Below, one piece after another: positions 24,096-41,156 of a stretch of DNA of 48,854 bases. Both the position numbers and the translations under genes were made by a program. The stretch is from Pseudomonadales bacterium (lineage in GTDB: Bacteria > Pseudomonadota > Gammaproteobacteria > Pseudomonadales > Pseudohongiellaceae), in NCBI GenBank assembly GCA_022827425.1, contig JAJDSZ010000060.1, positions 1 through 48,854 on the forward strand, written 5' to 3'. The notes below the pieces were generated by a model. The model worked only from the letters and a program-made list of their open reading frames with translations. It had not been told where the DNA came from and made no database searches. How positions within the stretch are numbered: the stretch's first letter is position 1; every line of letters begins with the position of its first letter.

Positions 24096-27000
24096 ATGAC
24101 GCATCCCACGTTCGACAGCTTGCACGCCACTCTTGAAGACCTTCGCCGCCGCCGCGGCACCTTCCTTGTATTGCGCCAACTCAGCCTGTTTTGCGCCGTC
24201 AGCGCCCTGCTGATATTCGGCTTTACCCTGTTGTTCAGCGAGTTGCAGCCGGCGCCTCTGGCGAGCCTGGCATTGCTCGCGGCGCTGCTGGGGGGCATCG
24301 GCGCACTGGGCTGGCGGCTGCTCGGCGTGCTGCGCCACCGCCATGCGACCCATCAGCGCCTGGCGCATTATGTGGAAGACCATATTCCCGATCTGGAACA
24401 GCGCCTGCTGACTTCCCTGGAATTCAGCGAGGATGAACTGCGGTTCGGCCGCCGGGGCGTTTCCCGGCAATTCATCGCCCGCCTGTGGCAGGACGCCGAG
24501 CGGCAAATGCTGCGGCAGCAGCGGGAAATGGAATCGATTACTCCGGTGGGTCGTTCCTGGCTCGGTTTCGGCCTGTCCGCGGCCGCCGTGCTCGCGGTCT
24601 CGGTGGCCCTGCTGACTTCGGGAAGCCTCAAGGATTCCTTCAGCCGCCTGCTGTGGCCCTTCGAAGCCGCAGAAATCGTCATCCAGGGCGAGCCGCCGCC
24701 GGTGATCGAAATTCTCATCGAGCCGGGCGATGTGGAATTGCAGCGCGGCGACGGCCTTGCCGTTGCGGCGCGGGTCAGCGGAGCCACCCCGGAGGCTGTG
24801 ACCCTGCGCCTGCAGGACGACAACGTCAACTGGCGCGATGTGGCCATGAGCCGGGACGGCAGCGGCAGCGATGGCGCCGCGTTCAGCTACTACATCCCGA
24901 GCCTGGACGAGGACACCACCTATTACGTGACCTTCAATCAGGGCCGCAGTCAAGACGCGCAGAATTCCCGCCAGTACCGCATCAGCGTTTTTGACCTGCC
25001 CCGGGTGGAGCAGATCGATGTGGCCTTCGATTATCCCGACTACACCGGCATGGAAGACCTGCTCGAAGAAGACGGCGGCGACCTGATCGCCCCGGTGGGA
25101 ACCGCGGTGGAAATCACCGTGGGCTTCAACAAGGCCGTGGCCGAGGCCCGGCTCGAATTCGACCCCGCCGCGGAAGGCGTCGACATGCCCGACCTGCCGC
25201 TGGCCATCGACGGCAATACCGGCGCCGCCTCCTTCACCCTCAGCCAGGATGGCGTGTACCGGGTGCGGGCGGTGGATCATTCCGGGCTGGCCAGCAGCGA
25301 CCCGCTCGACTACTACATCAGGGCCATTGTGGACCAGCCTCCGGAGCTCGCCCTGCGCCGCCCCGGCAGGGACCAGGACGTCATGCCGCTGGAGGAAGTC
25401 ATCCTCGAAATCGACGCCAGCGACGACTACGGCCTGACCCGCTTCGATCTCCATTACAGCGTGGTGGGCCAGGACGAGGTGGCGGCGGATTTCCTGCCCG
25501 AAGAGGCCGTGCGCAGCATATCCGGCGAGCAGTTGATTTATCTCGAGGACCTTGCCGTGGAGCCCGGCGATTTCGTCAGCTACTACCTCACCCTCGCGGA
25601 CAATAACGGCCTGGATGGCCCCAGCGAGGTGATTTCCGATATCTACTTTCTCCAGGTGATTCCCACCGATCAGGAATTCCGCCGCAACCAGGGCGGCGGC
25701 GGTGGTGGAGGAGGCGGTCAGGGCGGCGACAGCAGCGCCCTGGTCACGATCCAGAAAGACATCATCGCGGCAACCTGGAAGCTCAGGAACCGCGAATCCC
25801 GGGCGGCGCCCGAAGAGTTCGCCGCCGACGCCGAAATCATCGCCGAATCCCAGCTTGAAGCCACGCGCCAGGCGCGCATGTCGATTGACCGGCTGTCGGA
25901 AAGGCTCAATTTTTCCGACGACTCCTACGACCAGGCGGTGCAAAACCTTGCCTTGGCCATTGATCAGATGAATCTTGCGGCGGCGGAGCTCGACCTGCTC
26001 CAGGTCACCAGCGCCCTGCAGCCGGAACAGGCTGCGCTGCAGTACATTCTCAAGGCCGAAGCCAGTATCAACCGCACCGAAATCAGCATGCAGCAGGGCG
26101 GCGGCGGAGGCGGCGGCACGGATAGGCAGGAACGCGAAGATCTGCGCGAACTGTTCGAAATGGAGCTTGGCCAGTTGGAGAACCGCTATGAAAATCCCAA
26201 TAGCCGCGGCCAGAGCGCCCGGCAGCAGGAAGAGGCCAACAAGCTCGAAGAACTCGCCCGGCGCCAGGAGGGCCTGACCCGGGCCCAGCGCAATCTCGCC
26301 CGCCGCGCGGAACAATTGACCGAAGAGCAAAAGCGCAGGGAACTCGAAAGACTGGTGCGCCAGCAGGAGCAACTGAGCCAGGAAGTCCAGCAACTCGCCC
26401 GGCAGATGTCCCGGAGTCAGCAAGGCGCCAGCACATCACAAGGACAGAGTTCCCAGGGCGCAAGCGGTGGAGCCCGGCAGACCGGAGCGTTGCAGCAGGC
26501 GGCGCAGCAGATGCAGGACGCCGCCGAGGCGGAATCGCCTTCGATAGCCGCCGCCAGAAGCCAGAAGGCGCTGGAAAACCTGCGCCGTCAGCAGCAGCAA
26601 CTCGGCGAACAGGCGGATCGTTCGGTGAATCAACTGGCGCGCAATCTCGGCCAGCGCGGCCGGCAATTGCTTGCGCGGCAACGCGAGCTGCGGGAAGCCA
26701 TGGAAGAGGCCAGCCGGGAAATGGGCCTCGGCCAGACCCGGCAAGCGGTGCGCGACGACGCCGATCTCGACGAGCTGATCGAGGCCCAGCAACGCCGGCA
26801 GCAGGACATCGAGGAAATCGAGGACATGCTGCGGGCGGTAATCGCCCGGGGCGGCAACGAAGATCAGCGGCTGCTTTCCCAGGCCCAGCAGGCGACCCGG
26901 GAGTTGCGCCCCATCCAGGAAGAAATGCAGACCAGCAGCCGCATCCTGCGCAATGGCATGGTCAATCTCGCCGCGGATATCGAACAGACCGTGGAAGACC

Positions 27001-27635
27001 AGATCGAAGGTCTTGCCCAAAGCCTCGCGGCGCTCGACCCGACCCGGTCTCCGGGCAATCCCCTGCAACAGGCGGCGGCGGACGCCCGGCAGTTGCGCGA
27101 GCAGTTGCAGGCACTCGAAAGCCAGATCCAGGCGCTCAATGAAAACGGCAACCAGCCCGGCCCCGGCATGCCCGGTGTGGGTGAATTGCGCGAGCAGTTG
27201 CAGCAATCCCGCCAGCTCGCCCTCCAGATCAGCCAGCAGATGCGGCAGCAGGCCCAGCAAGGCGCCGGCGGGCAGGCCCGGGGCGGCAACCGGAACGGCG
27301 GTTCGCGCCAGCTTGGCGCCGACCGCTATGGCCCCGGCGGGGAAATCCGCACCGACGGCGGCAATCTGCCCTGGGGCAATGCGCGCTCGGTGACCCGGCA
27401 GATCACCCGCCAGGACATCGAGGACTTTCTCAACCAGCCCGAATTGTTCCGCGCCCTGCTCGAGCCGGTGATCGAACTCGAAGGCGCCCTGCGCGCCCAG
27501 GCCGAACTCGAGGAAATCAGCAACCGCCTGTACGCCACCATCGAGGAGGACATCCCCGACGAATATCGCGACCTGGTGCAGGAGTACTACCGCGTGCTGT
27601 CGGAACAACAGGGTTCGGACGATTCGGCGCGCTGA
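24096..27635 (+). CDS. Large DUF4175-like membrane protein with long coiled-coil region
   Basis: 1179 residues. Helices near 27-49, 52-77 and 152-174 anchor it in the inner membrane; residues about 185-525 look like two or more Ig-like beta domains outside the cytoplasm (PPPVIEILIEPGDVEL, then IDVAFDYPDYTG, then PPELALRRPGRDQDVM). A Gly-rich linker (about 531-543) leads to a long Gln/Arg/Glu-rich helical region (about 545-1179) interrupted by a second Gly run near 668. This matches the layout of DUF4175/TIGR02302-type proteins that accompany MoxR-vWA operons. The vWA gene starts 2 bp after its stop. Possible role: extracytoplasmic scaffold of the complex. The function is unknown; the family call is moderate. 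Confidence 0.75.
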   Translation: MTHPTFDSLHATLEDLRRRRGTFLVLRQLSLFCAVSALLIFGFTLLFSELQPAPLASLALLAALLGGIGALGWRLLGVLRHRHATHQRLAHYVEDHIPDLEQRLLTSLEFSEDELRFGRRGVSRQFIARLWQDAERQMLRQQREMESITPVGRSWLGFGLSAAAVLAVSVALLTSGSLKDSFSRLLWPFEAAEIVIQGEPPPVIEILIEPGDVELQRGDGLAVAARVSGATPEAVTLRLQDDNVNWRDVAMSRDGSGSDGAAFSYYIPSLDEDTTYYVTFNQGRSQDAQNSRQYRISVFDLPRVEQIDVAFDYPDYTGMEDLLEEDGGDLIAPVGTAVEITVGFNKAVAEARLEFDPAAEGVDMPDLPLAIDGNTGAASFTLSQDGVYRVRAVDHSGLASSDPLDYYIRAIVDQPPELALRRPGRDQDVMPLEEVILEIDASDDYGLTRFDLHYSVVGQDEVAADFLPEEAVRSISGEQLIYLEDLAVEPGDFVSYYLTLADNNGLDGPSEVISDIYFLQVIPTDQEFRRNQGGGGGGGGGQGGDSSALVTIQKDIIAATWKLRNRESRAAPEEFAADAEIIAESQLEATRQARMSIDRLSERLNFSDDSYDQAVQNLALAIDQMNLAAAELDLLQVTSALQPEQAALQYILKAEASINRTEISMQQGGGGGGGTDRQEREDLRELFEMELGQLENRYENPNSRGQSARQQEEANKLEELARRQEGLTRAQRNLARRAEQLTEEQKRRELERLVRQQEQLSQEVQQLARQMSRSQQGASTSQGQSSQGASGGARQTGALQQAAQQMQDAAEAESPSIAAARSQKALENLRRQQQQLGEQADRSVNQLARNLGQRGRQLLARQRELREAMEEASREMGLGQTRQAVRDDADLDELIEAQQRRQQDIEEIEDMLRAVIARGGNEDQRLLSQAQQATRELRPIQEEMQTSSRILRNGMVNLAADIEQTVEDQIEGLAQSLAALDPTRSPGNPLQQAAADARQLREQLQALESQIQALNENGNQPGPGMPGVGELREQLQQSRQLALQISQQMRQQAQQGAGGQARGGNRNGGSRQLGADRYGPGGEIRTDGGNLPWGNARSVTRQITRQDIEDFLNQPELFRALLEPVIELEGALRAQAELEEISNRLYATIEEDIPDEYRDLVQEYYRVLSEQQGSDDSAR

Positions 27636-27637
27636 GC

Positions 27638-29938
27638 ATGCAAGTCACCCAGCCCACGCTGCTGTCCGCGCTGCAACAAGGCAATCTGAGTTTTGCCCAC
27701 GGCGTCGGCCCGTGGCTGTTCGGGCTCATTTCCCTGTTCATTGTCGCCGCGGTCTGGCTGAGCTACCACCGCACCACCCGGCCGCTGTCGCCCGCCTGGA
27801 AAGCCTGGTTCATCGGGCTGCGCTCCCTGGTGCTGATCCTGATCCTGTTCTGTCTGCTGCGGCCGGTGGTGAACACGCGCCAGGTCTCGCCCCAGGATAC
27901 CTATCTCGCCGTGGTGCTCGACAATTCCCAGAGTATGACCATCGCCGACATGGACGGCCGCAGTCGGGCGGAGGCCGCCGCGGACGCCTTTCTCGCCGGT
28001 CCGATGGCGGATGAACTCGCAGAATCCTTCCAGCTTCGCAGCTTCGCCTTCGACCAGACCACACGCCGCCTTGCGCCGGGAGAAAGCGACGGCGCGCTCG
28101 GCGAATCCGGAACCGGTTCCGCCATCGGCCAGGCGCTGGAAGCCGTGGCCGACCAGCTTGACGGCCTGCCCCTCGGCGGCGTGGTTCTCGTCAGCGACGG
28201 CGCCGACAACAGCAATAGCGACCCGATCATCGCCGCCCGGCAGTTGGGCAACCGCCAGATTCCCGTTTTCACCGTGGGCGTGGGTCAGGAGGACATTCCA
28301 CTCGATATCGGCATTGTGGACGTCAGCGCCGCCCGCACCGTGCTCGAAGGTTCGGTCTTCACCGTGACCGCGGCCCTGCGCCACCAGGGATTCGCCGGCC
28401 AGGAAGTGGAACTCGCGGTGCTCGACGGCGGCGCCACGGTGAGCAGCGAAGTCGTCAGCCTCGGCGCCGCGGGCGTATCCCGGCGCTTCAGTCTCGAAGT
28501 CACCCCGGAACGCGCCGAGCGCATCGTCTACGAACTGCGGGTGGGCGTTCAGCCCGGCGAGATCATTACCCGCAACAACAGCTACAGTTTCCTGGTGGAC
28601 AATACCGACAAGCCGCCACTGGACATCCTCTATCTCGAAGGACACCCGCGCAACGAATACAAGTTCATCCGCCGGGCGGTGGAGGATGACGAGTCCCTGC
28701 GGCTGGCGACCTATCTGCAAACCGGCCCCGGCAAGTTCTACCGTCAGGGCATCGAATCGCCCACCGAGCTTGCCGAAGGCTTTCCCGGCAACCGGGAGAC
28801 GCTGTACGAGTACGAGGCGATCATCCTCGGCGATATCGAAAAAGAGTTCTTCAACGACGACCAGTTGCGGATGATCGAGGGCTTTGTCGCCGAGCGCGGC
28901 GGCGGCCTGCTCAAGAGCGGCATGGTGGACGAGGAGTTCATCGGCACCCCGCTGGTGGACATCCTGCCCGTGACCCTGGTGGAGGAGAATTTCCTGCCCA
29001 ATCCGCTGCGCGGCGGCATACGCCGGGGCGACCATCCCAGCGGCGAGCTGTTCACTCCGCGCCTGACCCGCAACGGCGAATTCTCGCCGCTGCTGCGGCT
29101 CGCCGGGGAAGACGCCGAAAACCGTTTCGCCTGGTCGCAACTGCCACAGTTGCAGGGAGTCTACGTCACCGGCCGCATCAAGCCCGGGGCCGAAGTGCTG
29201 CTGGAGCATCCGGCGCTGCAATACCAGAACCAGGCCCTGCCGGTGATCGTCACCCAGCGTTATGGCAGCGGCCGGGTCCTGTCGCTCACCACCGCGAGCA
29301 CCTGGCGCTGGCAGATGATGATGGACTCGGAAGACCCCTCACACGAAACCCTGTGGCGGCAGATGCTGCGCTGGCTTGCGGTTTCGGCGCCGGACCGGGT
29401 GACCCTGGAGTTCGACCGCGAGTTCTACAACATCGGCGACGAGGTGCGGGTCACCGCCCGGGTGCTCGACGAACAGTATGAGCCCGACAATGACGCCAGC
29501 CTGTGGATCCAGACCACCAACCCGCTGGACGAAATCACCGACACCCCCATGGAATGGAATATCGAGGAAGACGGCATTTACCGCTCCACCTTCATTGCCG
29601 ACCAGGAGGGGGTTTTCGACCTGCTCGTGGACTTGACCAGCGCCGCCGGCGAGGAAGGCGCCGAGAAGCGGGCCGCCATCGTGGTGACGCCTTCCCTGCG
29701 CGAATTCAACAATGCCGGCATGGACCGGGGCCTGCTTGGCCGCATGGCGGAAGCCGCCGGCGGCAGCTATTTCGATCTCGACGAGGTGGGCGGACTGCCC
29801 GAAGCCATCGAATTCACCCCCAACGCCTATTCCCGGGAAACGCAGATCGACCTGTGGGACGAGCCCTGGCTGCTCGCCCTGCTCGTAGGCCTGCTATGCA
29901 TCGACTGGATGACGCGCCGGCTGCGGGGTTTGTCATGA
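27638..29938 (+). CDS. vWA-domain membrane protein with glutamine-amidotransferase-like domain
   Basis: 766 residues. Two helices near 23-45 and 58-77 are followed by a vWA domain (about 86-260) with the MIDAS motif DNSQSMT and a VSDGADNSN loop. CARDB/Ig-like strands follow (about 265-325), then a class I GATase-like fold (about 330-575, LDILYLEGHPRNEYK, with GGGLLKSG near the normal nucleophile site and no Cys there). A C-terminal helix (about 738-755) returns to the membrane. Such proteins accompany MoxR ATPases, which are thought to act on vWA partners through the metal site. It overlaps the next gene by ATGA. Confidence 0.82.
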   Translation: MQVTQPTLLSALQQGNLSFAHGVGPWLFGLISLFIVAAVWLSYHRTTRPLSPAWKAWFIGLRSLVLILILFCLLRPVVNTRQVSPQDTYLAVVLDNSQSMTIADMDGRSRAEAAADAFLAGPMADELAESFQLRSFAFDQTTRRLAPGESDGALGESGTGSAIGQALEAVADQLDGLPLGGVVLVSDGADNSNSDPIIAARQLGNRQIPVFTVGVGQEDIPLDIGIVDVSAARTVLEGSVFTVTAALRHQGFAGQEVELAVLDGGATVSSEVVSLGAAGVSRRFSLEVTPERAERIVYELRVGVQPGEIITRNNSYSFLVDNTDKPPLDILYLEGHPRNEYKFIRRAVEDDESLRLATYLQTGPGKFYRQGIESPTELAEGFPGNRETLYEYEAIILGDIEKEFFNDDQLRMIEGFVAERGGGLLKSGMVDEEFIGTPLVDILPVTLVEENFLPNPLRGGIRRGDHPSGELFTPRLTRNGEFSPLLRLAGEDAENRFAWSQLPQLQGVYVTGRIKPGAEVLLEHPALQYQNQALPVIVTQRYGSGRVLSLTTASTWRWQMMMDSEDPSHETLWRQMLRWLAVSAPDRVTLEFDREFYNIGDEVRVTARVLDEQYEPDNDASLWIQTTNPLDEITDTPMEWNIEEDGIYRSTFIADQEGVFDLLVDLTSAAGEEGAEKRAAIVVTPSLREFNNAGMDRGLLGRMAEAAGGSYFDLDEVGGLPEAIEFTPNAYSRETQIDLWDEPWLLALLVGLLCIDWMTRRLRGLS

Positions 29939-30987
29939 ATCGCCTGGGAGCGCTGGTCCTGCTGCTGGTATTCGCGATTACCGCGGCCCGGGCGCAACTT
30001 CCGCCGGAAAGCGACTATTTCCTCGAAGCGCCGGATTCCGCCAAGTACGCGGTGATTATCGTCGGCCCATCGGTGGGCGCCGACAATGTTTCCCGGTTCC
30101 GGCGGTGGGCCTATTCGCTCCACGACATCCTCATCCGGGACTACGACTATTCCACCGATTCCATCACCCTGCTCCACAACCCGGACGCCGCCGGCCCCAA
30201 TGCCGGCAGCCGGCTCGACGGAACCAGCAACCGGGCCGGCATCGCGGCGGCTTTTGGCGAATTGCGCGATCAGGTGAACGACGGAGACCAGCTTACCGTC
30301 TATCTCATCGGCCACGGCACCGGCGAAGGCGAGGAAGCCAAATTCAATATCATCGGCCCGGATTACACCGGCCCGGAGTTCCGCGAATTGCTGGAACCTT
30401 TCGCGCGGCAGGATCTGGTCATCGTCAATACCACCAGCGCGAGCTACGGCTTTTCCACCTTTCTCTCGGGAGAGGGCAGGGTGGTGATTTCCGCCACGCG
30501 CTCGGCTTCCGAGAAATATGATCCGGTTTTCTCGCGCTACTTCATCGAAGCCCTCGACGGCCGCGCCGGCGACCTCGACAAGAACAACCGGGTTTCCCTG
30601 CTGGAAGCCTTCAATTACGCCCGGGCCAACGTGGAGCAGTGGTACGCCGACCAGGGCCGGCTCGCCTCGGAACACGCCGGGCTCGACGATAACGGCGACG
30701 CCATGTTCAGCCTCGGCCCGGGCCTCGATGACCCGGACGGCCGCCTGGCGGAAATCGCCTATATCGACTCCGCCGCGGCGGAAACCGCCAATCTCGGCGG
30801 CGAAGCACTGGCGCTGAAATCCCGCATGCAACAACTGGAACGCTCGGTTTTCATTCTGCGGGGCCGCAAGACCGAATTCCTCGAACCCGACTACTGGCGC
30901 CAGCTCGAGGAATTGCTGGTGGAGCTGGCCCGCGCCACCGCGAGATTCCATGCGCTTGCGCCACAAAATCCGAATCCCTTGCCATGA
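29935..30987 (+). CDS. Secreted C13/caspase-fold protein lacking the catalytic cysteine
   Basis: 350 residues with a signal peptide (LGALVLLLVFAITAARA, cleaved near residue 20), so periplasmic. The core (about 35-215) follows the legumain/caspase pattern: KYAVIIVGPSVGADN, then YLIGHGTGEG with His127, then LVIVNTTSASYGFSTFLSG, then RVVISATRSASEKYDPVF. Where active C13 peptidases have Glu-Ala-Cys-Glu-Ser-Gly, this protein has Asn-Thr-Thr-Ser-Ala-Ser; Thr167 aligns with the Cys. It is therefore probably a pseudoprotease or binding module. A helical tail (about 275-345) ends it. Overlaps: ATGA with the vWA gene, ATGA with the next gene. Confidence 0.8.
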   Translation: MNRLGALVLLLVFAITAARAQLPPESDYFLEAPDSAKYAVIIVGPSVGADNVSRFRRWAYSLHDILIRDYDYSTDSITLLHNPDAAGPNAGSRLDGTSNRAGIAAAFGELRDQVNDGDQLTVYLIGHGTGEGEEAKFNIIGPDYTGPEFRELLEPFARQDLVIVNTTSASYGFSTFLSGEGRVVISATRSASEKYDPVFSRYFIEALDGRAGDLDKNNRVSLLEAFNYARANVEQWYADQGRLASEHAGLDDNGDAMFSLGPGLDDPDGRLAEIAYIDSAAAETANLGGEALALKSRMQQLERSVFILRGRKTEFLEPDYWRQLEELLVELARATARFHALAPQNPNPLP

Positions 30988-33671
30988 ATATCCTGAACCG
31001 TCTGCCGCTCGTCCTGATCCTGCTGCTGCCCGCCGCGGCGATCGCCCAGCCCGAAGATGAGCCGGTGCTTGCCACGGCTCCCCTGCAGCGCGGCGAGCAA
31101 TTGCTGCTGTCGGGCGCCTACGCCGCCGCCGCCGAGGTGTTCCGGCAGGCCGACGGGCTCGACCGCAACGCCGGCGTCATCGGCGCAAGCCGCGCCCTGG
31201 CGGGCATGGGCAATTATCAGGAGGCAATGGCGGTCTGCGAGGAACTGATCGGCGGCGACTATGCGGATTACCCCCTGGTCAGCACCCAGTTGGCCGAAGT
31301 CAAGCGCATGACCGGCAATTCCGCCGAGGCGATCGCCATTCTCCAGTCGGTGATCGACGGTCTTGGAGTGGAAGGCGCGCCGGTGCGCAGTCTGGCGCAA
31401 CAGGCCTCGCTGCTGCAGTTCACCGGTCGCGGGGACGAAAGCTTTCCCCTGCTCGAGGAAGTCGTGGGCCGCTACAACAACGGCCTGATTTTCAGTTCCG
31501 CCGATGTGACCATGACGGCCCTGGCAAGCTGGCTGCTCGGACGTTTTCACGACGCCAACAGCCTGTTCCGGGAAGCCACCCGGGCCGACCCGCAAAACCT
31601 CGAGGCGCAAACGCTCTGGGGCGACCTGTTCCTGGAAAAATACAACGAAGGCGAGGCGCGAACCTCCTATGAGGACGCGCTGGAAGTCAACAACCGTTAC
31701 GTTCCCGCCCTGGTGGGCCTGGCGCGGATCACCGGCGACGAGCGCAGCCTGCAGCGGGCGCTGGCAATCAATCCCAATACGGTGTCGGCCATGGAAGTCT
31801 GGGGTCGGCTGTTGCAGCGCAATGAGCGGGTGGAGGAGGCCGCGGGGCATTTTTCCCGGGCGCTCAATCTGAACCCCGAAGCCCTGGGCGTGCTCAGCGC
31901 CATGGCGGCCCAGGCGGCCATGGAAGAGCGCATGGCGGACTACGAACTGCACGCCGCCCAGGTGGAGGCATTCAGCCCCGGCAACCCGGTTTTCCTGGCC
32001 GATGTGGCGGATCATTTCGGTCGCAACTACCGCTTTGCCGAGGCGGTGGAATACGCCCGCGCCGCCATTGCCGCCGACCCGGAATACTGGCGTGGCTATA
32101 CCGTGCTGGGCAGCAACCTGATCCGCCTCGGCGAGGAAGCCGAGGGCCGCGCCAATCTCGAAATCGGCTTCGATAACGATCCGTTCAATGTGCTGTCCTC
32201 CAATCTGCTCACGGTGTTCGACACCCTGGAACAATACGCCACCCTGGAGAGCGAGCATTTCCTCGTCCACATGTCCCCCCGGGACGCCAAAATACTCTGG
32301 CCGTATCTCGAGCCGCTGCTGGAAGAGGCCTGGGACGAGATGGTGGAAAAATGGCAGTTCGAGCCGGAGTATCCGGTACTGATCGAGGTTTTTGAAAATA
32401 CCCAGGATTTCGCCGTGCGCTCCGTGGGCCTGCCCGATATCGGGCCGCTGGTGGGCATCTGCTTCGGCAAGGTGATTACCCTGATCTCCCCGGACACCCT
32501 CAGCGCCAACTGGCAGGAAATCGCCTGGCACGAGTTTTCCCACGTGATTACCCTGCAAATGACCCGCAACCGGATTCCGCGCTGGCTGTCGGAAGGCATT
32601 TCGGTATGGGAGGAACAGCAGGGCCGGCCCTACTGGGGCCGCCGCCAGGGCCTGGACCTGGTGCGCGCCGCCGGACAGGAGCAGTATCTGCCGGTGTCGG
32701 AGTTGAACTCGGCCTTCAGCGGCGCCCGCAGCAATGCCGACCTGGGTTTCGCCTACTTCCAGTCGTATCTGGTGGTGGATTACATCGAGCAGACTTTCGG
32801 CTTCGACAAGCTGCGGGAACTGGTCGTGCAGTACGGCCTTGTCAAGCGGGACAGCGAGCGCTTCCGGGAAGTTTTCGACCTCTCCCTGAACGAGTTCGAC
32901 GCGGGCTTTCGCGGCTGGATCGCCCAGCGGGTGGCCGAGATCAATGTCTACGTCCATAATGAGGACGTGCCCGACGAAGTCGAAGGCCACGGCCACGGCA
33001 TCCGGGAAAATTCCAGCGCCATCCTCTCGGAACTCTACAACAACGCTTCCCTCAAGCAGTACATGCGCGGCCGGCTGGAAGAGAACTCCCGGGACTTCAT
33101 GGCGCATCTGCAACTCGGCATCGTGCTGTTCAAGGAAGAGAACTTCGCCGAGGCGAAGCAATCACTGCTGGCGGCCCACGAATTGCTGCCGAGTTATTCC
33201 GGTTATCCGAGCCCGCCCCTGGTGATGTCCCAGATATATGAAAGCGAGGGCAATCCGGAGGAACAGCGGCGCTGGCTCGAAATCCTGCTGGACAATCTGC
33301 AGCACGACGACCAGTCCGCCCTGATTCTGGCGGAAGCCGCCCTTGACGCGGGCGATACCGAACGCGCCGACTACTATATCGACCGGGCCCTGCAGGTGGA
33401 CCCGTACGAAAGCGAAGTCCACGCCCTGCGCGCCAGGCTTGCCGACCAGACCGGCGACTCTTCGATAGCGGTCACCGAGTATGAAATCCTGCTGGAGCTG
33501 GAAATCTCGGACCCGGTGGCAGCCGGAACGAGCCTGGCCGAAGCCTATCTGCGCGACGGTCGGCCCGCAGCCGCCCGGGAAACCGCGCTGCGGGCGCTGG
33601 AGACCGCGCCAAGCTATCTCCGGGCGCAACAGGTGCTGCTCCAGTCCATCGACGGGAATCCCCGCCAGTGA
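30984..33671 (+). CDS. Secreted TPR protein with zinc-metalloprotease (gluzincin, MA-like) domain
   Basis: 895 residues with signal peptide (LPLVLILLLPAAAIA). TPR-like repeats fill about 30-415 and about 690-890. Between them lies a peptidase domain (about 420-660) with His516-Glu517-x-x-His520 (WHEFSHV) and the third ligand Glu537 in WLSEGISVWEE, the HExxH-(16)-E geometry of gluzincins. The catalytic residues are intact, so proteolysis in the periplasm is expected, unlike the neighbouring C13-like protein. TPRs probably hold substrate or partners. It overlaps both neighbours by 4 bp. Confidence 0.85.
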   Translation: MNILNRLPLVLILLLPAAAIAQPEDEPVLATAPLQRGEQLLLSGAYAAAAEVFRQADGLDRNAGVIGASRALAGMGNYQEAMAVCEELIGGDYADYPLVSTQLAEVKRMTGNSAEAIAILQSVIDGLGVEGAPVRSLAQQASLLQFTGRGDESFPLLEEVVGRYNNGLIFSSADVTMTALASWLLGRFHDANSLFREATRADPQNLEAQTLWGDLFLEKYNEGEARTSYEDALEVNNRYVPALVGLARITGDERSLQRALAINPNTVSAMEVWGRLLQRNERVEEAAGHFSRALNLNPEALGVLSAMAAQAAMEERMADYELHAAQVEAFSPGNPVFLADVADHFGRNYRFAEAVEYARAAIAADPEYWRGYTVLGSNLIRLGEEAEGRANLEIGFDNDPFNVLSSNLLTVFDTLEQYATLESEHFLVHMSPRDAKILWPYLEPLLEEAWDEMVEKWQFEPEYPVLIEVFENTQDFAVRSVGLPDIGPLVGICFGKVITLISPDTLSANWQEIAWHEFSHVITLQMTRNRIPRWLSEGISVWEEQQGRPYWGRRQGLDLVRAAGQEQYLPVSELNSAFSGARSNADLGFAYFQSYLVVDYIEQTFGFDKLRELVVQYGLVKRDSERFREVFDLSLNEFDAGFRGWIAQRVAEINVYVHNEDVPDEVEGHGHGIRENSSAILSELYNNASLKQYMRGRLEENSRDFMAHLQLGIVLFKEENFAEAKQSLLAAHELLPSYSGYPSPPLVMSQIYESEGNPEEQRRWLEILLDNLQHDDQSALILAEAALDAGDTERADYYIDRALQVDPYESEVHALRARLADQTGDSSIAVTEYEILLELEISDPVAAGTSLAEAYLRDGRPAAARETALRALETAPSYLRAQQVLLQSIDGNPRQ

Positions 33672-34531
33672 AGCCAATTGAGGACTCCCGCCCGGCTTTT
33701 TCCCGTTATCGCCTCGGGCTGCCGGTCGCGGGACTGTGCCTGCTGCTGGCGCTTTCCGCCTCAATCCAGGCCCAGCAACTGCGTCTCGAGGACAACGAAG
33801 ACCTGGCCATCTACGGCGACGACATCACCGAATTCACCTGGGTGCGGGGGCAATACACCAATCATGGCGGCGCCGGCTTTTCCTTCCGCCGCCGGGGCGG
33901 CTGGTGGGACACCGACTACCCCGACTCCGACGAGAACTTCCTGCGCGGCGTCCAGCGCTACACCAATATCGACACCAACCCCCGCAACCACACCTTCATG
34001 CAATTGACCGACCCGCGCATTTTCGAGCACATCTTTCTCTACATGAACTGGAAGCGCGTGCCCATCGGCTCGAGCTACAGCGGCCCGAATTTCAGCGCCG
34101 AGGAAATCGAAATCCTGCGGGAATTCATGTTCCGGGGCGGATTCGTCATGGTGGACGATTTCTGGGGCCAGCCCCACCTCGACGACATGTACATGGAAAT
34201 CGGCAAGATCTTCCCCGACCGGGAAATCGTCAAACTCGACACCAGCCACGAGATTTTCCACATCTTCTTCGATATCGACGAGTTGGCCCAGGTACCCGGG
34301 CGCATGGTGACCTGGGATTTCGGCGGCTACATGAATCTCGATGACCCGAGCTATCCGCCCGAAGTCTATGCCGTGCTCGACGACGATGGCCGTGTCATGA
34401 TGCTGGCGAACTACAATACCGATCTCGGCGACGGCTGGGAGCACACCTTTTATGCGGGATATCCGACCCGCTACACCAACGAGGCTTACAAGATCGGGAT
34501 AAACTTCCTGATCTACGCTTTCAGTCACTAG
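33668..34531 (+). CDS. Secreted DUF4159 family protein
   Basis: 287 residues from GTG 33668 (GTGA overlap with the TPR gene), with a signal peptide (AGLCLLLALSASIQA, about 21-36). The DUF4159 domain (about 50-287) shows FTWVRGQYTNHGGAG, the DENFLRGVQRYTNI segment, GGFVMVDDFWG and a C-terminal GINFLIYAFSH. The fold is GATase-like without a catalytic Cys in the expected place. DUF4159 is a regular companion of MoxR/DUF58/BatA operons, usually as the C-terminal part of a larger membrane protein; here it is a separate secreted chain. Its TAG stop is shared with the first base of the family B element. Confidence 0.85.
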   Translation: MKPIEDSRPAFSRYRLGLPVAGLCLLLALSASIQAQQLRLEDNEDLAIYGDDITEFTWVRGQYTNHGGAGFSFRRRGGWWDTDYPDSDENFLRGVQRYTNIDTNPRNHTFMQLTDPRIFEHIFLYMNWKRVPIGSSYSGPNFSAEEIEILREFMFRGGFVMVDDFWGQPHLDDMYMEIGKIFPDREIVKLDTSHEIFHIFFDIDELAQVPGRMVTWDFGGYMNLDDPSYPPEVYAVLDDDGRVMMLANYNTDLGDGWEHTFYAGYPTRYTNEAYKIGINFLIYAFSH

Positions 34532-34684
34532 GGAAGCTCTGATTAAGTCAGAGCTTCCCTGCGGCACATGGAAGTGCCGCCGAATTCGATGGCGTAAGCC
34601 ATTGAATTCGCGAGCAAAACAAAACCACGCTTTTGTTTTGCGACAATGAAAAATTCCATGGATGGAATTTTTCAGAGAATACCT
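34531..34684 (-). repeat. Family B multi-hairpin element, copy B2 (short form, inverted)
   Basis: Five hairpins in a row with almost no unpaired sequence: GGGAAGCTCTGA/TCAGAGCTTCCC (34531-34559, 12 bp), GCGGCAC/GTGCCGC (34561-34580), CGAATTCGATGGC/GCCATTGAATTCG (34581-34610, one G-T pair), GCAAAACAAAA-type (34614-34641, 11 bp) and GAAAAATTCCA/TGGAATTTTTC (34648-34673, 11 bp). It starts at the last base of the DUF4159 stop codon and ends about 50 bp before the MoxR start. It could terminate, attenuate or process the long transcript. Confidence 0.88.
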
Positions 34685-34736
34685 GGATCATCAACCTGGA
34701 AATTTCCGGATTTCCACAAGCAACGGGAAACAGGGC

Positions 34737-35804
<1,068 letters not shown>

Positions 35805-35809
35805 CCCCG

Positions 35810-36703
35810 GTGTCGGAATCCCTCAATTTTCTCGACCCGTCGGTTCTGGCGGGGCTTTCCAATCTCGAGATGCGCGCCCGGGTGGCGGTGGAGGGATTCC
35901 TGTCTGGCCTGCACAAGAGTCCGGACCGGGGGTTCAGCGTCGAGTTCAACGATTACCGCCACTACTATCCCGGCGATGACATGCGCCATGTGGACTGGCG
36001 GCTCTACGCCCGCTCGGGGAAGTTCTACGTCAAACAATACGAAGACGAAACCAATGTGCGCTGCGTCATCCTGCTCGACAACAGCGCCTCCATGGCTTAC
36101 GGCACGGGCGATTTCACCAAACTGCAGTATGGCGTCACCCTGGCTTCGGCGCTGTCCTACTTCATCATGCGCCAGCGCGACGCCGTGGGGTTGATCGTGT
36201 TCGATGAGGAAATCCGCGATTACATTCCACCCAAATGCCGGCAAATGCACTTGATGCGGATTCTGCGCTCGCTGGCGAAAGTCGAGCAGGGCGGCGGCAC
36301 CGACGTGGTCAAGCCGCTCACCGACCTGGCCACCTCGCTCCACAAGAAAAGTTTCGTGGTGCTGATTACCGATATGCTGGACGATGAGGAGCGCGTGATC
36401 CGCACCCTGCAGAACCTGCGCGCCATGGGCCACGACGTTATCGCCTTCCAGATCATGGACCACGCCGAGCTCGAATTCCCCTTCACCGAGGCCACCGAGT
36501 TCATCGACATGGAGAACGACGAGAGTTTTATCACCTCGCCGGCGGCGATACGCAAGTCCTATCTCCAGCATGTCCGGGAGTTTCTCGACTATTGCCGCGG
36601 GAAATGCCAGGGCAGCGGGGTGGACTATTGCCTTATGGACACTTCCCAGCCCCTTGACCAGGCGCTTTCGGCGTTCATGATGCGGCGGGCGCGGAGCTTC
36701 TGA
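35810..36703 (+). CDS. DUF58 (vWA-like) protein
   Basis: 297 residues from GTG 35810. The DUF58 hallmark lies near 43-70: RGFSVEFNDYRHYYPGDD, then RHVDWRLYAR. A degenerate vWA fold follows with the MIDAS-like LLDNSASM (about 86-93) and LITDMLDDEE. No signal or membrane segment, so it is cytoplasmic and a probable direct partner of MoxR. Its stop overlaps the next start (TGATG). Confidence 0.92.
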   Translation: MSESLNFLDPSVLAGLSNLEMRARVAVEGFLSGLHKSPDRGFSVEFNDYRHYYPGDDMRHVDWRLYARSGKFYVKQYEDETNVRCVILLDNSASMAYGTGDFTKLQYGVTLASALSYFIMRQRDAVGLIVFDEEIRDYIPPKCRQMHLMRILRSLAKVEQGGGTDVVKPLTDLATSLHKKSFVVLITDMLDDEERVIRTLQNLRAMGHDVIAFQIMDHAELEFPFTEATEFIDMENDESFITSPAAIRKSYLQHVREFLDYCRGKCQGSGVDYCLMDTSQPLDQALSAFMMRRARSF

Positions 36704-38724
36704 TGGTCTTTCTCACGCCGCTGTTCCTGCTGGGCCTGCTTGCCGCGCTGGTTCCGGTGGCGATTCACCTCATCCGCCGGGAAAAGCCGCCCAGAATGAG
36801 GTTCAGCACGGTGCGCTTTCTCAAGAAAACCTCGCGCAAGCTGGTGTTGTTCCAGCATTTGCGGCAATTGCTGCTGCTTGCCCTGCGCGCGGGCCTGATC
36901 GCCCTGCTGGTATTCGCCTTCGCCCGCCCCCTGATCAACCTCTCGGTGGCGCGGCTGCTCGACGCCGATCCCGAGTCGGCGGTGCTGCTGCTCGATGTGT
37001 CCATGAGCATGCGCTACGAGGACGTGTTCGAAACCGCCCGGGGGGAGGCCCTCGACCTGATCGACTCCCTCGACGCCGGCGACGAAGTCGCGCTGGTCGC
37101 TTTCGACGAAAGCGTCGGTCTTGTCCGCGAATTCAATACCGACCTCGACAGCGTCCGTTCGCTGCTGCGGGAAATCGAGCCGGGCTACGGCGCCACCGAT
37201 TTCATGCCGGCCCTGCGCCTGGCCAATGAACTGCTCGAGTCTTCCCGCTTCGAAAACCGCGCGCTGTATCTGGTTTCGGACTATCAACAGGCGGGCATGG
37301 ACAATGTGGCGGAAGACTGGAAACTCGCCCCGGGAGTGCGCTTCACCGGGCTCGACGCCGGCAGGCCCGAATCGGTGAATCTGGCCCTTACCGACGTGCG
37401 TTCGCCGGAACAATTGCTCGAAGACGAACTGCGGCAGCAGGTGCTCGCCCGGGTCCGCTCCACCGGGACGCTGTTCACCGGGCAAGCCGATGTCAGCCTG
37501 CTGATCAATGACCAGCTCATCGACCGCCAGTCGGTGGCGCTCGATGACCGCTCCGAGCGCGTGGTCAGCTTTGCCGCGAGTTTTCCCGAACAGGGCAGCC
37601 ATATCGGCCGCATCGAAATCGCCGGCGATAACTTTCCCGCCGACAACGCCTGGCATTTCACCGTGGACGTGCTGCCGGGAATTCGCATTCTGCTGGTCAA
37701 TGGCGAGGCTTCCGAGCAGTGGTTCGACGACGAAGGCCACTGGTTTTCCCTGGCGGTGGGCAGCTCCGGGGAATCGCCCTTTCGCCTGCGGGCGCTGCAG
37801 CCGGAGGATTTGAGCGCGGCGGCCCTGCGCCAGAACGACGTGGCGGTGCTGCTCAATGTGGGCGAACTCAGCGCCAGCCAGGCGGATGCCCTGGCGGACT
37901 ATGTGCGCGGCGGCGGCGCCCTGCTCATCGCGCCCGGCGATCAGGTGGAGCCGGAGCGCTTCAATGAACAGTTCGCCGAAATCAGCCCGGCGCAACTGGC
38001 AAGCCCGGAACTCACCGGCGCCGGCGATTATCTGGTCATCGCCGATTTCGACCGGCGGCATCCGGTGTTCCGCTCGCTGGATACCGACTGGTCGGCGCGC
38101 TTCCGGCATCACTGGTGGCTTGCCGCCAATCCGGGCGCGGAAGTGCTGATGCAGTTCGACAACGCCATGCCGGCGCTGGTGGAGCAGGAATTCGGCGAAG
38201 GCAAGGTGCTGCTGTTCGCTTCGAGCATGGATCTGGAATGGAACAATCTGCCGCTCCAGGGCCTGTTCCTGCCTTTCATCCATGAAACCCTGCGCCACCT
38301 GGCGCAGCCGGAACTGAAGCGGCGTTCGTATCAGGTGGGGGACCGGTTTTCCGTGGACATCAATGGCGCCGGGGTGGTTGCGGGCGTGCAAGGCCCCGAC
38401 GGCAATGCAATGGCATTCTCCGCTGAGAACTTTGTGGTGGAAGCAAGCATGCCGGGCATCGTCCGCGCCGAGGTGGACGGCGGCAATGAGAGTTTTGCCG
38501 TAAATGCCGCCGCCGCCGAGTCAAACCTGGAAAGAGTGGCGGTGGCGACCCTCGCCGATTCCATCATCAATCCCGACACCGATGTGGTTCGCTCCCGGGA
38601 CGTGCAGATGGCGGAACTCGCGGAGGAACTCGAACGGCCCCAGCGCATCTGGTGGTGGATTCTGCTGTTCGCCATGATCCTGCTGCTCGCGGAATCCCTG
38701 CTTGCCAATCGGACCCACCGTTAG
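36703..38724 (+). CDS. BatA/vWA-domain membrane protein with GATase-like region
   Basis: 673 residues. The N-terminal BatA anchor (FLTPLFLLGLLAALVPVAIHLIRR, with PPRMRFSTVRFLK) and a second helix near 55-75 flank the membrane. A vWA domain (about 88-260) has the MIDAS motif LLDVSMSM. A GATase-like domain (about 330-500, IRILLVNGEASEQWF, and GGGALLIAPG) and an Ig-like tail follow, with a last helix near 650-667 (WWWILLFAMILLLAES). The layout mirrors that of the 766-residue vWA protein upstream, so the operon has two scaffolds of the same kind. It ends the MoxR unit. Confidence 0.88.
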   Translation: MVFLTPLFLLGLLAALVPVAIHLIRREKPPRMRFSTVRFLKKTSRKLVLFQHLRQLLLLALRAGLIALLVFAFARPLINLSVARLLDADPESAVLLLDVSMSMRYEDVFETARGEALDLIDSLDAGDEVALVAFDESVGLVREFNTDLDSVRSLLREIEPGYGATDFMPALRLANELLESSRFENRALYLVSDYQQAGMDNVAEDWKLAPGVRFTGLDAGRPESVNLALTDVRSPEQLLEDELRQQVLARVRSTGTLFTGQADVSLLINDQLIDRQSVALDDRSERVVSFAASFPEQGSHIGRIEIAGDNFPADNAWHFTVDVLPGIRILLVNGEASEQWFDDEGHWFSLAVGSSGESPFRLRALQPEDLSAAALRQNDVAVLLNVGELSASQADALADYVRGGGALLIAPGDQVEPERFNEQFAEISPAQLASPELTGAGDYLVIADFDRRHPVFRSLDTDWSARFRHHWWLAANPGAEVLMQFDNAMPALVEQEFGEGKVLLFASSMDLEWNNLPLQGLFLPFIHETLRHLAQPELKRRSYQVGDRFSVDINGAGVVAGVQGPDGNAMAFSAENFVVEASMPGIVRAEVDGGNESFAVNAAAAESNLERVAVATLADSIINPDTDVVRSRDVQMAELAEELERPQRIWWWILLFAMILLLAESLLANRTHR

Positions 38725-38809: not shown

Positions 38810-38899
38810 ATATTTGAAAAAACTGGCCGATTTTTCTTGATATTGCCGCGCTGATGCGCGATATTCGAAGCGGTGTTTTTCGCTTCGGGGTTTCGCATC

Positions 38900-39574
38900 A
38901 TGCCGGTTTTTCTCGACAGCATCAGGATATCCATCTTTTCCGGGGCCGGTTTGTGGAGTTGGTTCGCGGTCGCTGCGCTGGTATTGCATTCCCCTGTCAA
39001 CGGGCAGTCAGGGGATTTATTCCCGGCGGATTCCCCGCTTGCAGATTCACTGTTGCGCCGGGCCCAGTCTCTCCAGGAACAGCACGAGCACGCGGCAGCC
39101 CTGCCCATTCTGCGCCGGGCACTCGAGCTGGCCCGCATGTCCAGGGGCCTGTATCACGAAGGTCAGCTTGATATTCTCTACAGCCTGATCGAAAGCGAGT
39201 CGGTGCGGGCCAACTGGGAGCAGGTGGACGATTACTTCACTCTGCTGCAAAGCCTGTACCTGCGCTTGTACGCCGATGATCCGGCCCGGCTGGAGAGTGG
39301 GCTGGCCAGGGTAAGCGACTGGCACGCCGATGCCCTGCGCCATGGACTCGACGGGCGCACGGTGTCGCATCTGCGCCAGGCCCGCCGATTGTTCAAGCTG
39401 AGGCTGCAACTTGCCGAGGCCGCGCCGAGCCGGGACCCGGGCAAGGTTGAAAGGCTGCGGAGCGGTATCCGCATCGCCGAATCCCATCTGGGCCTGTATT
39501 CCATGAGCGACAGCGGAATCCTGCACAAACAGCAGGAGCAGCAACGGGAATTGCTGCTGTCAAGTCTGCGCTAG
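38900..39574 (+). CDS. Small secreted helical-repeat (TPR-like) protein
   Basis: 224 residues from ATG 38900, preceded by GGGG; a GTG at 38873 is an alternative. A signal peptide or anchor (ISIFSGAGLWSWFAVAALVL, about 8-27) is followed by a wholly helical chain: LLRRAQSLQEQHEHAAALP and ILRRALELARMSRGL look like TPR helices, with further helices to the end. No catalytic motif. It lies behind a Pho box, so it may be phosphate-regulated. The gene-free stretch after it (39575-39928) holds a family A repeat and a possible structured RNA. Function unknown. Confidence 0.75.
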   Translation: MPVFLDSIRISIFSGAGLWSWFAVAALVLHSPVNGQSGDLFPADSPLADSLLRRAQSLQEQHEHAAALPILRRALELARMSRGLYHEGQLDILYSLIESESVRANWEQVDDYFTLLQSLYLRLYADDPARLESGLARVSDWHADALRHGLDGRTVSHLRQARRLFKLRLQLAEAAPSRDPGKVERLRSGIRIAESHLGLYSMSDSGILHKQQEQQRELLLSSLR

Positions 39575-39928: not shown

Positions 39929-41017
39929 TTACTGTTTCAGCGGGATAATGCCGAGCTTCTGGGCCCGGCGTTTCCAGTTTCCGCGGGCCAGGGCCTGCAT
40001 GTCCTCGGTATCGTCGGATTCGTCGACGATCTCGAGCCCGAGCAGGGTCTCGATGATGTCCTCCATGGTCAGTATGCCCTCCATGGCGCCAAATTCATCC
40101 ACCACCACCGCCAGGTGTTCCTTCTTGGCGATGAACATGTCGAGCAGGTCGGGCACCGTGGCGGTCTTGTGGACGGCGATGATGTCCCGGCGCAGGTCCT
40201 TCAGCCTCACCTCGTCATGTTCTTCCACAAGCTTGAGCAGGACTTCGTCCTTGAGCACATAGCCGGTGACATTGTCATTCTTGCCCTGATACACGGGGAT
40301 GCGCGAAAAAGGCAGTTCATCGTGGCTGTCGTGAAACTCCCGCAGCCCGGTGTCCTCGCTTGCCGCCACCACGACAATGCGCGGCGTCATCACATCGGCG
40401 GCCTGAATGCCGCGGAAGGCGAGCAGGTTGTGGATGATCTTGCGCTCGCTCTCGGCAAGCACGCCGGTTTCGGTGCCGATGTCGGTCATCACCGCAAGAT
40501 CGGTGCGGCTGAGCACGGGCCGGTCCTTGTCCTTCTTCAGTTTGCCGGTGATGAACTGGCTCAGCCACACCAGCGGCCAGAGCACGATGAGCATGACCTT
40601 GAGGGTTCTGGTGGTGGCCGGGGCGAGCGCCTCCCAGTTGTTGGCGCCGATGGTCTTGGGAATGACTTCCGAGAAGATGAGAATCGCCAGGGTCATGATC
40701 ACCGCCACGATGGCTTCCCAGTTCAGCGCAATGCCCATGCCGAACAGCGAAATCTCCGAATGGGGAAACAGCACGGCGGCCTGGGCGCCAACGCCAATGG
40801 CGCCGACGGTATGGGCGATGGTATTGAGCGTCAGTATCGCCGCCAGTGGCCGGTCGATATCCTCCTTGTAGGCGGCAAGGTCGGCGGCGACGCTGGAGCC
40901 CTGCTTTTCCAGAACGCCCACATAGGTCGGTGTGACGCTGAGCAGCACCGCTTCCATGATGGAGCAGAGAAAAGAGAAGCAGATGCTGACAAAAAAGAAC
41001 GCGAGCAGAAGGCCCAT
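39929..41017 (-). CDS. CNNM-domain (DUF21) CBS-pair membrane protein
   Basis: 362 residues. Four helices in the DUF21 domain (about 2-22, 60-85, 95-125 and 130-150; ILIFSEVIPKTIGANNW is the diagnostic segment) are followed by a CBS pair (about 195-330; HNLLAFRGIQAADVMTPR, with VVVDEFGAMEGILTMEDIIETLLG at the end). The CorC_HlyC domain that often follows is absent. Members transport or regulate Mg2+/Co2+ or extrude Na+; the role here is unknown. The start at 41017 (MGLLLAFFF) is preferred to one 57 codons upstream that would overlap the RND gene. Confidence 0.9.
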   Translation of the reverse strand: MGLLLAFFFVSICFSFLCSIMEAVLLSVTPTYVGVLEKQGSSVAADLAAYKEDIDRPLAAILTLNTIAHTVGAIGVGAQAAVLFPHSEISLFGMGIALNWEAIVAVIMTLAILIFSEVIPKTIGANNWEALAPATTRTLKVMLIVLWPLVWLSQFITGKLKKDKDRPVLSRTDLAVMTDIGTETGVLAESERKIIHNLLAFRGIQAADVMTPRIVVVAASEDTGLREFHDSHDELPFSRIPVYQGKNDNVTGYVLKDEVLLKLVEEHDEVRLKDLRRDIIAVHKTATVPDLLDMFIAKKEHLAVVVDEFGAMEGILTMEDIIETLLGLEIVDESDDTEDMQALARGNWKRRAQKLGIIPLKQ

Positions 41018-41156
41018 GAAAACTACCGCAACATCCCCGGAACCGATTCTCACACAGTCCCCCAAGCCCTTACAAGCGCAGCCGGGACCGAAGCCGCAAC
41101 CGGGCAAGGGTGCGCCCGCCGATTGCCTCAAGGGTGGTTTCGCGCGTTCTTCTGCC

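Follow-up and report, generated by a model that had tools for sequence, protein, structure and literature searches.

The closest described relatives of the eight-gene operon studied here, which lies in a 48,854-nt stretch of a Pseudomonadales bacterium of the family Pseudohongiellaceae (GenBank assembly GCA_022827425.1, contig JAJDSZ010000060.1, positions 1 to 48,854; hereafter the window, a contig of a 2.86-Mb draft genome), are envelope operons that contain a MoxR ATPase. In Rhizobium leguminosarum, the MoxR gene RL3499 belongs to the four-gene envelope operon RL3499-RL3502 (cmdA-cmdD), whose mutants show envelope and cell-shape defects, as cited in three papers (PMC5700661, PMC5118466, PMC3893208). 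The Bat (Bacteroides aerotolerance) operons likewise combine MoxR, DUF58 and a BatA-type vWA protein, and the vWA domain of BB0173, a BatA-type protein of Borrelia, was placed in the periplasm by experiment (PMC5700661). A parallel of another kind is offered by E. coli TldD/E, a heterodimer in which the metal site is in TldD alone and both subunits are needed (PMC5810440).

The operon of the window comprises eight co-oriented open genes (g1-g8) spanning positions 24096-38724 of the forward strand. A core of MoxR, DUF58, vWA and DUF4159 proteins is joined in it by a candidate protease module, made up of a cysteine-free protein of predicted legumain fold (g3) and a metallopeptidase with an intact catalytic motif (g4). 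We read the eight genes, at a probability of roughly 45%, as encoding one envelope machine in which the cytoplasmic MoxR would control the periplasmic g3-g4 module. The intergenic distances from g1 to g8 are 2, -4, -4, -4, 205, 5 and -1 bp, with g6 (MoxR) taken to begin at an internal ATG at 34737; these values and the open frames bear out the earlier description of eight overlapping or closely spaced genes. The features, with gene products in amino acids (aa), are:

24096..27635, + strand: g1, DUF4175-like protein, 1179 aa (Pfam DUF4175, 35.5 bits against a cut-off of 27.3)
27638..29938, + strand: g2, predicted membrane protein with vWA, GATase-like and MG2/Ig-like parts, 766 aa (Pfam VWA above cut-off)
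29935..30987, + strand: g3, predicted secreted legumain (C13)-fold pseudoprotease without cysteine, 350 aa (profile comparison and structure)
30313..30315, + strand: His127 codon of g3, the residue that matches the C13 catalytic His in the alignment
30436..30438, + strand: Ser168 codon of g3, occupying the place of the catalytic Cys and aligned with Cys139 of metacaspase-4
30984..33671, + strand: g4, predicted secreted TPR gluzincin (Peptidase_MA_2), 895 aa, HEFSH at 516-520 (Pfam, 53.8 bits against a cut-off of 32.4)
33668..34531, + strand: g5, predicted secreted DUF4159 protein of 287 aa, starting at GTG (Pfam DUF4159, 123.4 bits)
34532..34736, + strand: g5-g6 gap, 205 bp, with inverted repeats
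34737..35804, + strand: g6, predicted cytoplasmic MoxR AAA+ ATPase, 355 aa if begun at the internal ATG (Pfam AAA_3, 209.7 bits, and AAA_lid_2)
35810..36703, + strand: g7, predicted cytoplasmic DUF58 (vWA) protein, 297 aa, without hydrophobic segment (Pfam DUF58, 172.7 bits)
36703..38724, + strand: g8, predicted membrane protein with BatA-N, vWA and ThuA/GATase-like parts, 673 aa (Pfam BatA, 62.0 bits; VWA_2, 57.2 bits)

Pfam backs most of the domain names given in the first-pass annotation (DUF4175, vWA, Peptidase_MA_2, TPR, DUF4159, MoxR, DUF58 and BatA), with vWA above the curated cut-offs in g2, g7 and g8 and the TPRs of g4 above theirs. The GATase-like name fared less well: the GATase-like/ThuA-like parts of g2 and g8 fall under their Pfam cut-offs (in g2, GATase1_like reaches 26.2 bits against 27, and MG2 is likewise under). 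Motifs of the vWA type stand at position 95 of g2 (DNSQS) and position 98 of g8 (DVSMS), g8 also matches NCBIfam TIGR02226 (64.5 bits), and the GVPGLAKT motif of g6 is present in 57/57 aligned rows, the window's own included. By hydropathy, g3, g4 and g5 have signal-like starts, that of g5 with an N-terminal hydrophobic segment, and membrane segments occur in g1 (29-78 and 156-174), g2 (two, N-terminal) and g8 (3-21, 56-74 and 649-667); g6 and g7 look cytoplasmic. The remainder of g1 is probably a periplasmic region of Ig-like and coiled-coil character. The loop between the two N-terminal hydrophobic segments is basic in both g2 and g8 and, by the positive-inside rule, the vWA and GATase-like domains of these proteins are therefore predicted to lie in the periplasm, with the short basic loop inside.

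The MoxR gene of the window is directly followed by the DUF58 gene, and a BatA-N double-anchor vWA protein is encoded in the same operon, as in the cmd and Bat types. DUF4159, on the other hand, is a separate chain in the window and not fused to the BatA-type protein; such a fusion is what we take to mark the cmd type, in which RL3500-RL3502 are presumably DUF58, BatA/DUF4159-type and GATase-type proteins. Compared by description with these Rhizobium genes, the window differs in having a separate secreted DUF4159 protein together with DUF4175, a pseudoprotease and a TPR metallopeptidase, and it differs from the Bat operons in its secreted protease pair, none being found in the Bat descriptions consulted. 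Judged by predicted domains, the operon is a variant of the MoxR-DUF58-BatA type with an added protease module, and not of the four-gene cmd type. In the open-access library searched we found no paper with DUF4159, none joining DUF4175 and MoxR and, among the records listed, nothing on this arrangement in which a C13 protein, a pseudoprotease, a caspase or TldD accompanies MoxR. The parts are known, and the arrangement looks undescribed in that library.

The g3-g4 pair

Although g3 has no Pfam match at E<=0.1, it is C13-like both by profile comparison and by structural matching, the 50 structural matches listed being legumains and their relatives, glycosylphosphatidylinositol (GPI) transamidase, metacaspases, caspases and MALT1. 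A first structure prediction, built on 33 close relatives, had a predicted local distance difference test (pLDDT) score of 65. As regards clan CD membership, the legumain-type fold is present and the catalytic His-Gly is kept, but the catalytic Cys of C13 peptidases is missing in 481/481 relatives examined, in homologue listings that hold the best 120 of 1326, 170 and 2684 and could miss distant Cys-bearing relatives. The His is invariant (364/364 in one set and 117/117 in the set obtained from a Gemmatimonadota member), and the nucleophile place is occupied by Ser in 362/364 and 104/117, or 466/481 in total. The g3 of the window has zero cysteines, which rules out a nucleophile displaced to another site in the chain, and recent decay of a once active protease is ruled out because the Cys is missing in all 481 relatives, including those of another phylum. 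By its residues, g3 is therefore not filed as an active C13 peptidase. The earlier label of a dead protease stands in so far as the partner is C13-like and lacks Cys; we refine it to a conserved Cys-free family with an invariant His-Gly, in which, to judge from the alignments, the absence of Cys is not random loss.

The high frequency of Ser also bears on an alternative, in which g3 is alive, Ser168 and His127 form a serine-type dyad in the legumain fold, and the module contains two working hydrolases. Both residues are among the 15 that are invariant in 39 diverse g3 sequences, and one divergent member weakly matches Abhydrolase_6, just under the cut-off. We consider an active g3 very improbable and give it less weight because Ser is replaced by Pro in 13/117 (all in the Gemmatimonadota-derived set) and by Asn in 2/364 while the rest of the site stays unchanged; moreover, Ser is not known to serve as nucleophile in any clan CD peptidase. 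The Asn replacements, with the His kept, occur at L158 (G391) and P0185, one of which is named Pseudohongiella nitratireducens.

Among other members of the family, a relative at L094 has a Pfam C13 match under the cut-off. An alpha/beta-hydrolase fold, suggested by the one weak Abhydrolase_6 match (at L152), was set aside; it is not among the 50 structural matches listed, where its absence proves nothing. A natural fusion of g3 and g4 (P0234) was not used, as it has an inner signal-like segment, lies on a 1.8-kb contig and is possibly a frameshift read-through.

In g4, HEFSH at 516-520 is followed by SEG at 536-538, and the HExxH motif, the downstream Glu and a Pfam score over the cut-off together place the protein in the gluzincin family Peptidase_MA_2. 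The motif is present in 128/131 g4 open reading frames across all sets, the other three being pieces of 314, 396 and 425 aa, and HExxH with the following EG pair occurs in 71/71 aligned rows of the window's type. This conservation upholds the claim that g4 carries an intact metallopeptidase motif, as far as sequence can do so. The combination of a C13-type subunit with a metallopeptidase-like partner resembles the GPI transamidase by analogy only; that enzyme is eukaryotic and has its catalytic Cys.

An HExxH-like string, HEIFH, was also noticed at residues 194-198 of g5, and HE[IVLM]FH is found in 81/116 g5 rows, mostly from near relatives. We did not adopt it as an active site, as it is replaced in the other DUF4159 lineages examined.

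Linkage and spread of the operon

Loci were chosen through g3 or DUF4159, so the survey covers g4 where it accompanies one of these. Linkage was scored in 125 distinct g3 loci from all sets, after removal of 7 duplicates. All eight genes were found in 80 of these loci and seven, with no detected g5, in 24; the others are partial. In 121/125, g3 lies directly between g2 and g4, and the other 4 have g3 at the contig start with g4 after it. MoxR is present in 114/125, and every MoxR-less locus (11 or 12, depending on which of L016 and L017, two records of one metagenome-assembled genome, is kept) ends at most 44 bases past the last operon gene. Wherever a locus is long enough to tell, as 114 distinct ones are, it holds both the g2-g3-g4 and the g6-g7-g8 block. 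The first-pass annotation had proposed a single unit, to be doubted if g3 homologues were rarely near MoxR; the linkage of g3 with MoxR speaks for that unit.

Among the 75 contig loci found by g3, 59 match the window in the order of all eight genes, with split frames in 4 of these, and the remaining 16 hold a contiguous part of that order. Split frames are present at L029 and L073/L236. Relatives of the window share the order g1-g2-g3-g4-g5-g6-g7-g8, and other genera, families and orders have (g5)-g2-g3-g4-g6-g7-g8-g1. In another phylum, Gemmatirosa kalamazoonensis carries g2-g3-g4-g5-g6-g7-g8-g1 on a 1.1-Mb replicon, with a g3 that is 42% identical over 236 residues. The co-occurrence of the eight families that the first-pass annotation had suggested looking for thus recurs across families and in another phylum, though the order varies, and because of this recurrence the gene order is more than chance.

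The same counts bear on the possibility that these are co-transcribed envelope-maintenance genes whose products form at least two separate complexes, such as one of MoxR-DUF58-g2-g8 and, apart from it, a free g3-g4 protease. Such a division would fit with the finding that g1 and g5 move or go missing while g2-g3-g4 and g6-g7-g8 remain blocks. Both blocks are nevertheless joined in all loci long enough, and in another phylum as well, and we regard separate complexes as quite unlikely.

The distribution of g3 is uneven. It was found in 107/109 genomes of the window's family (89/89 of those of good quality), Pseudohongiella acticola also having it, in 45/48 genomes of a second order, that of G810, and in 2/2 of a third, that of G768. 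In the order sample, strong matches were found in 15/293 genomes (two families) and weak ones in 16; in the class sample, strong matches were found in 4/274 genomes, the window's own among them; and in the phylum sample of 398 genomes the sole strong match was in the window's own genome. Phylum-wide profile searches gave, beyond that genome, weak matches in 4/299 and 19/398, and the four weak-match loci inspected (L159-L162) encode Cys-type MORN-C13 proteins. Some lineages thus have g3 as a core gene, and most of the others lack it.

This distribution argues against a role in defence or conflict, in which the operon would be a vWA-MoxR ternary system and have a caspase-like effector, since g3 is core to the family, unlike patchy defence genes. 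Systems of that type bring MoxR and vWA together, in some cases with caspase-superfamily parts (PMC7159879), and g6 scores over the bpMoxR Pfam cut-off, if far below its AAA_3 score. Most components here look secreted or membrane-bound, however, g3 lacks a nucleophile and the composition is near constant. The Pfam scan of the eight genes, with no dedicated model search (padloc included) made, found no effector-associated domain. We find a defence role hardly credible.

DUF4159 loci and the TldD/TldE parallel

For loci found through DUF4159 (PF13709), matches were drawn from the order and phylum samples, and 20 of 71 distinct places were inspected, the short-frame match in G094 not among them. 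Six loci (L090-L092 and L101-L103), from four families of which one is outside the class, have a separate DUF4159 gene together with MoxR-DUF58-BatA and neither g3 nor g4. In all six, the core adjoins PmbA/TldD-type genes, at least one with HExxxH and one without; they were identified by Pfam for L090 and by BLAST for the other five loci. The TldD-like proteins with HExxxH begin with RR-x-F-[LI], a start whose RR motif we take to be of the twin-arginine translocation (Tat) type. BLAST found no TldD/TldE-like protein in the other 149 loci scanned, which include all g3 loci except the plasmid record L237. The separate DUF4159 chain to which the first-pass annotation had attached importance is present in the window, but these six loci also have it and it is not special.

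Beside the same core, the g3/g4 pair looks replaceable by a TldD/TldE-like pair, as far as gene content can tell. Like TldD/TldE, it would comprise one metal-bearing and one non-catalytic subunit; unlike TldD/TldE, g3 and g4 match no PmbA/TldD family, and PmbA_TldD domains have no Pfam match in any of the eight genes. That the same core has, in both cases, a live and a dead subunit for neighbours is the main reason for reading the operon as a regulated periplasmic protease, though the parallel is an analogy and not proof. A more general view would make the MoxR-DUF58-vWA-DUF4159 core an ATP-driven inner-membrane platform for interchangeable periplasmic proteases, each consisting of one live metallopeptidase and a dead partner. 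This generalization is doubtful, and equally so its allotment of the TPR gluzincin and the legumain-fold pseudoprotease to one branch and of TldD and TldE to another.

Six further loci of the same phylum (L104-L109, presumably alphaproteobacterial) have a fused DUF4159, MoxR-DUF58 and long BatA-type and/or GATase-type proteins, look like the cmd type, and contain neither g3/g4 nor TldD-like genes. Five loci have a lone DUF4159 without the core. For most DUF4159 matches from other classes of the same phylum the open frame is about 920-1220 aa long, and a named control, Caulobacter, also has DUF4159.

The presence of the core without either protease pair in the six fused-DUF4159 loci favours a chaperone or assembly device for an envelope complex, of the kind put forward for other MoxR-vWA pairs, in which clients or metals would be bound by g3 and g4 and little or no proteolysis would take place. 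In line with this, binding modules (vWA, TPR, Ig-like and GATase-like) make up most of the domains, and PMC3893208 presents MoxR proteins as maturation factors of a chaperone-like kind. The intact zinc-protease motif in all g4 frames other than pieces argues against it, as does the unrelated protease pair beside the core in six other loci, and we hold such a device to be somewhat unlikely.

Several observations on DUF4159 stand apart from the operon. The genome of the window has a second, lone gene for a secreted DUF4159 protein (G000:C128:17030-17797, L084), and the genes convergent with it look like hemX/hemY. Two DUF4159 matches were seen in each of all seven DUF4159-bearing genomes of the family in that search. 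In G319, G352 and G404 (family f92; 2.0-2.3 Mb) there are 3-4 matches each, one of them inside a g3-bearing operon.

A proposed MoxR-controlled protease module and what it would mean

If the eight genes do encode one machine, MoxR (g6) and DUF58 (g7), both cytoplasmic, would act on g2 and g8 through the basic loops of these two proteins, and the scaffold of g2, g8 and g1, with its vWA, GATase-like and Ig-like domains, would be switched or remodelled with ATP. The scaffold could then hold or release g3-g4, so that the module is turned on or loaded with substrate. As the sole part with an intact catalytic motif, g4 would do the cutting, and g3 may be its dedicated partner, binding peptides or proteins and presenting them to g4 or restraining it; g5 may be an adaptor. 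The likely outcome would be turnover or maturation of envelope proteins.

A number of points weigh against this machine. g5 is undetected in 24 of the 125 distinct loci, all holding the other seven genes and 23 of the 24 with at least 1.3 kb before g2 in view, and DUF4159 is therefore not essential at this place; g1 switches between the ends of the operon. The core of L104-L109, which has neither protease pair, must have some function independent of these proteases. As for synteny, the upstream transporter-like gene g0 is kept in only 1/56 window-type loci with room for it and 0/30 of the other order type, but downstream of the operon g9 persists in 30/39 and gm in 27/39 window-type loci (the downstream control covers this order type, as the stretches of the other type end at the operon end). 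Their conservation nearly equals that of the operon itself, so close synteny alone proves little there, and the weight rests on other families, other orders and the other phylum. Finally, gene neighbourhood cannot separate a complex from co-regulation, and any force exerted by MoxR would have to reach the periplasm by way of short loops.

The downstream gene g9 (38873-39574, same strand, about 150 bp past g8) encodes a small protein that has a hydrophobic segment at its N-terminus and matches TPR_12 weakly, and is possibly a lineage-specific ninth member. It is followed on the minus strand by gm (39929-41188), a membrane protein by hydropathy that resembles, we believe, CNNM/CorC-type proteins. 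Within the operon, the g5-g6 gap had been called a repeat element; its inverted repeats are present, but 25-base pieces sampled from it every 15 bases each occur once in the window, which was the only sequence searched. The length of the gap differs among near relatives (L002, L003 and L004), which would fit a mobile or repetitive extragenic palindromic (REP)-like insertion. Rfam gave 0 matches, and a promoter and terminator scan found no excess (2 promoter-like sites against 2.5 expected and 5 terminator-like sites against 13.1 expected).

What the widespread MoxR-vWA operons do in the envelope is a long-standing question. One family now offers a way into it through a near-universal protease module, as both the active site of g4 and the pseudo-active site of g3 can be tested, and the genes occur in named organisms, all eight in Gemmatirosa kalamazoonensis and g3 in Pseudohongiella acticola. 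With its constant position next to a live protease in two phyla, the g3 family clearly exemplifies a dead enzyme that strong selection maintains. If the exchange with TldD/TldE is a functional one, it would mean ATP-controlled proteolysis in the periplasm, a compartment without ATP.

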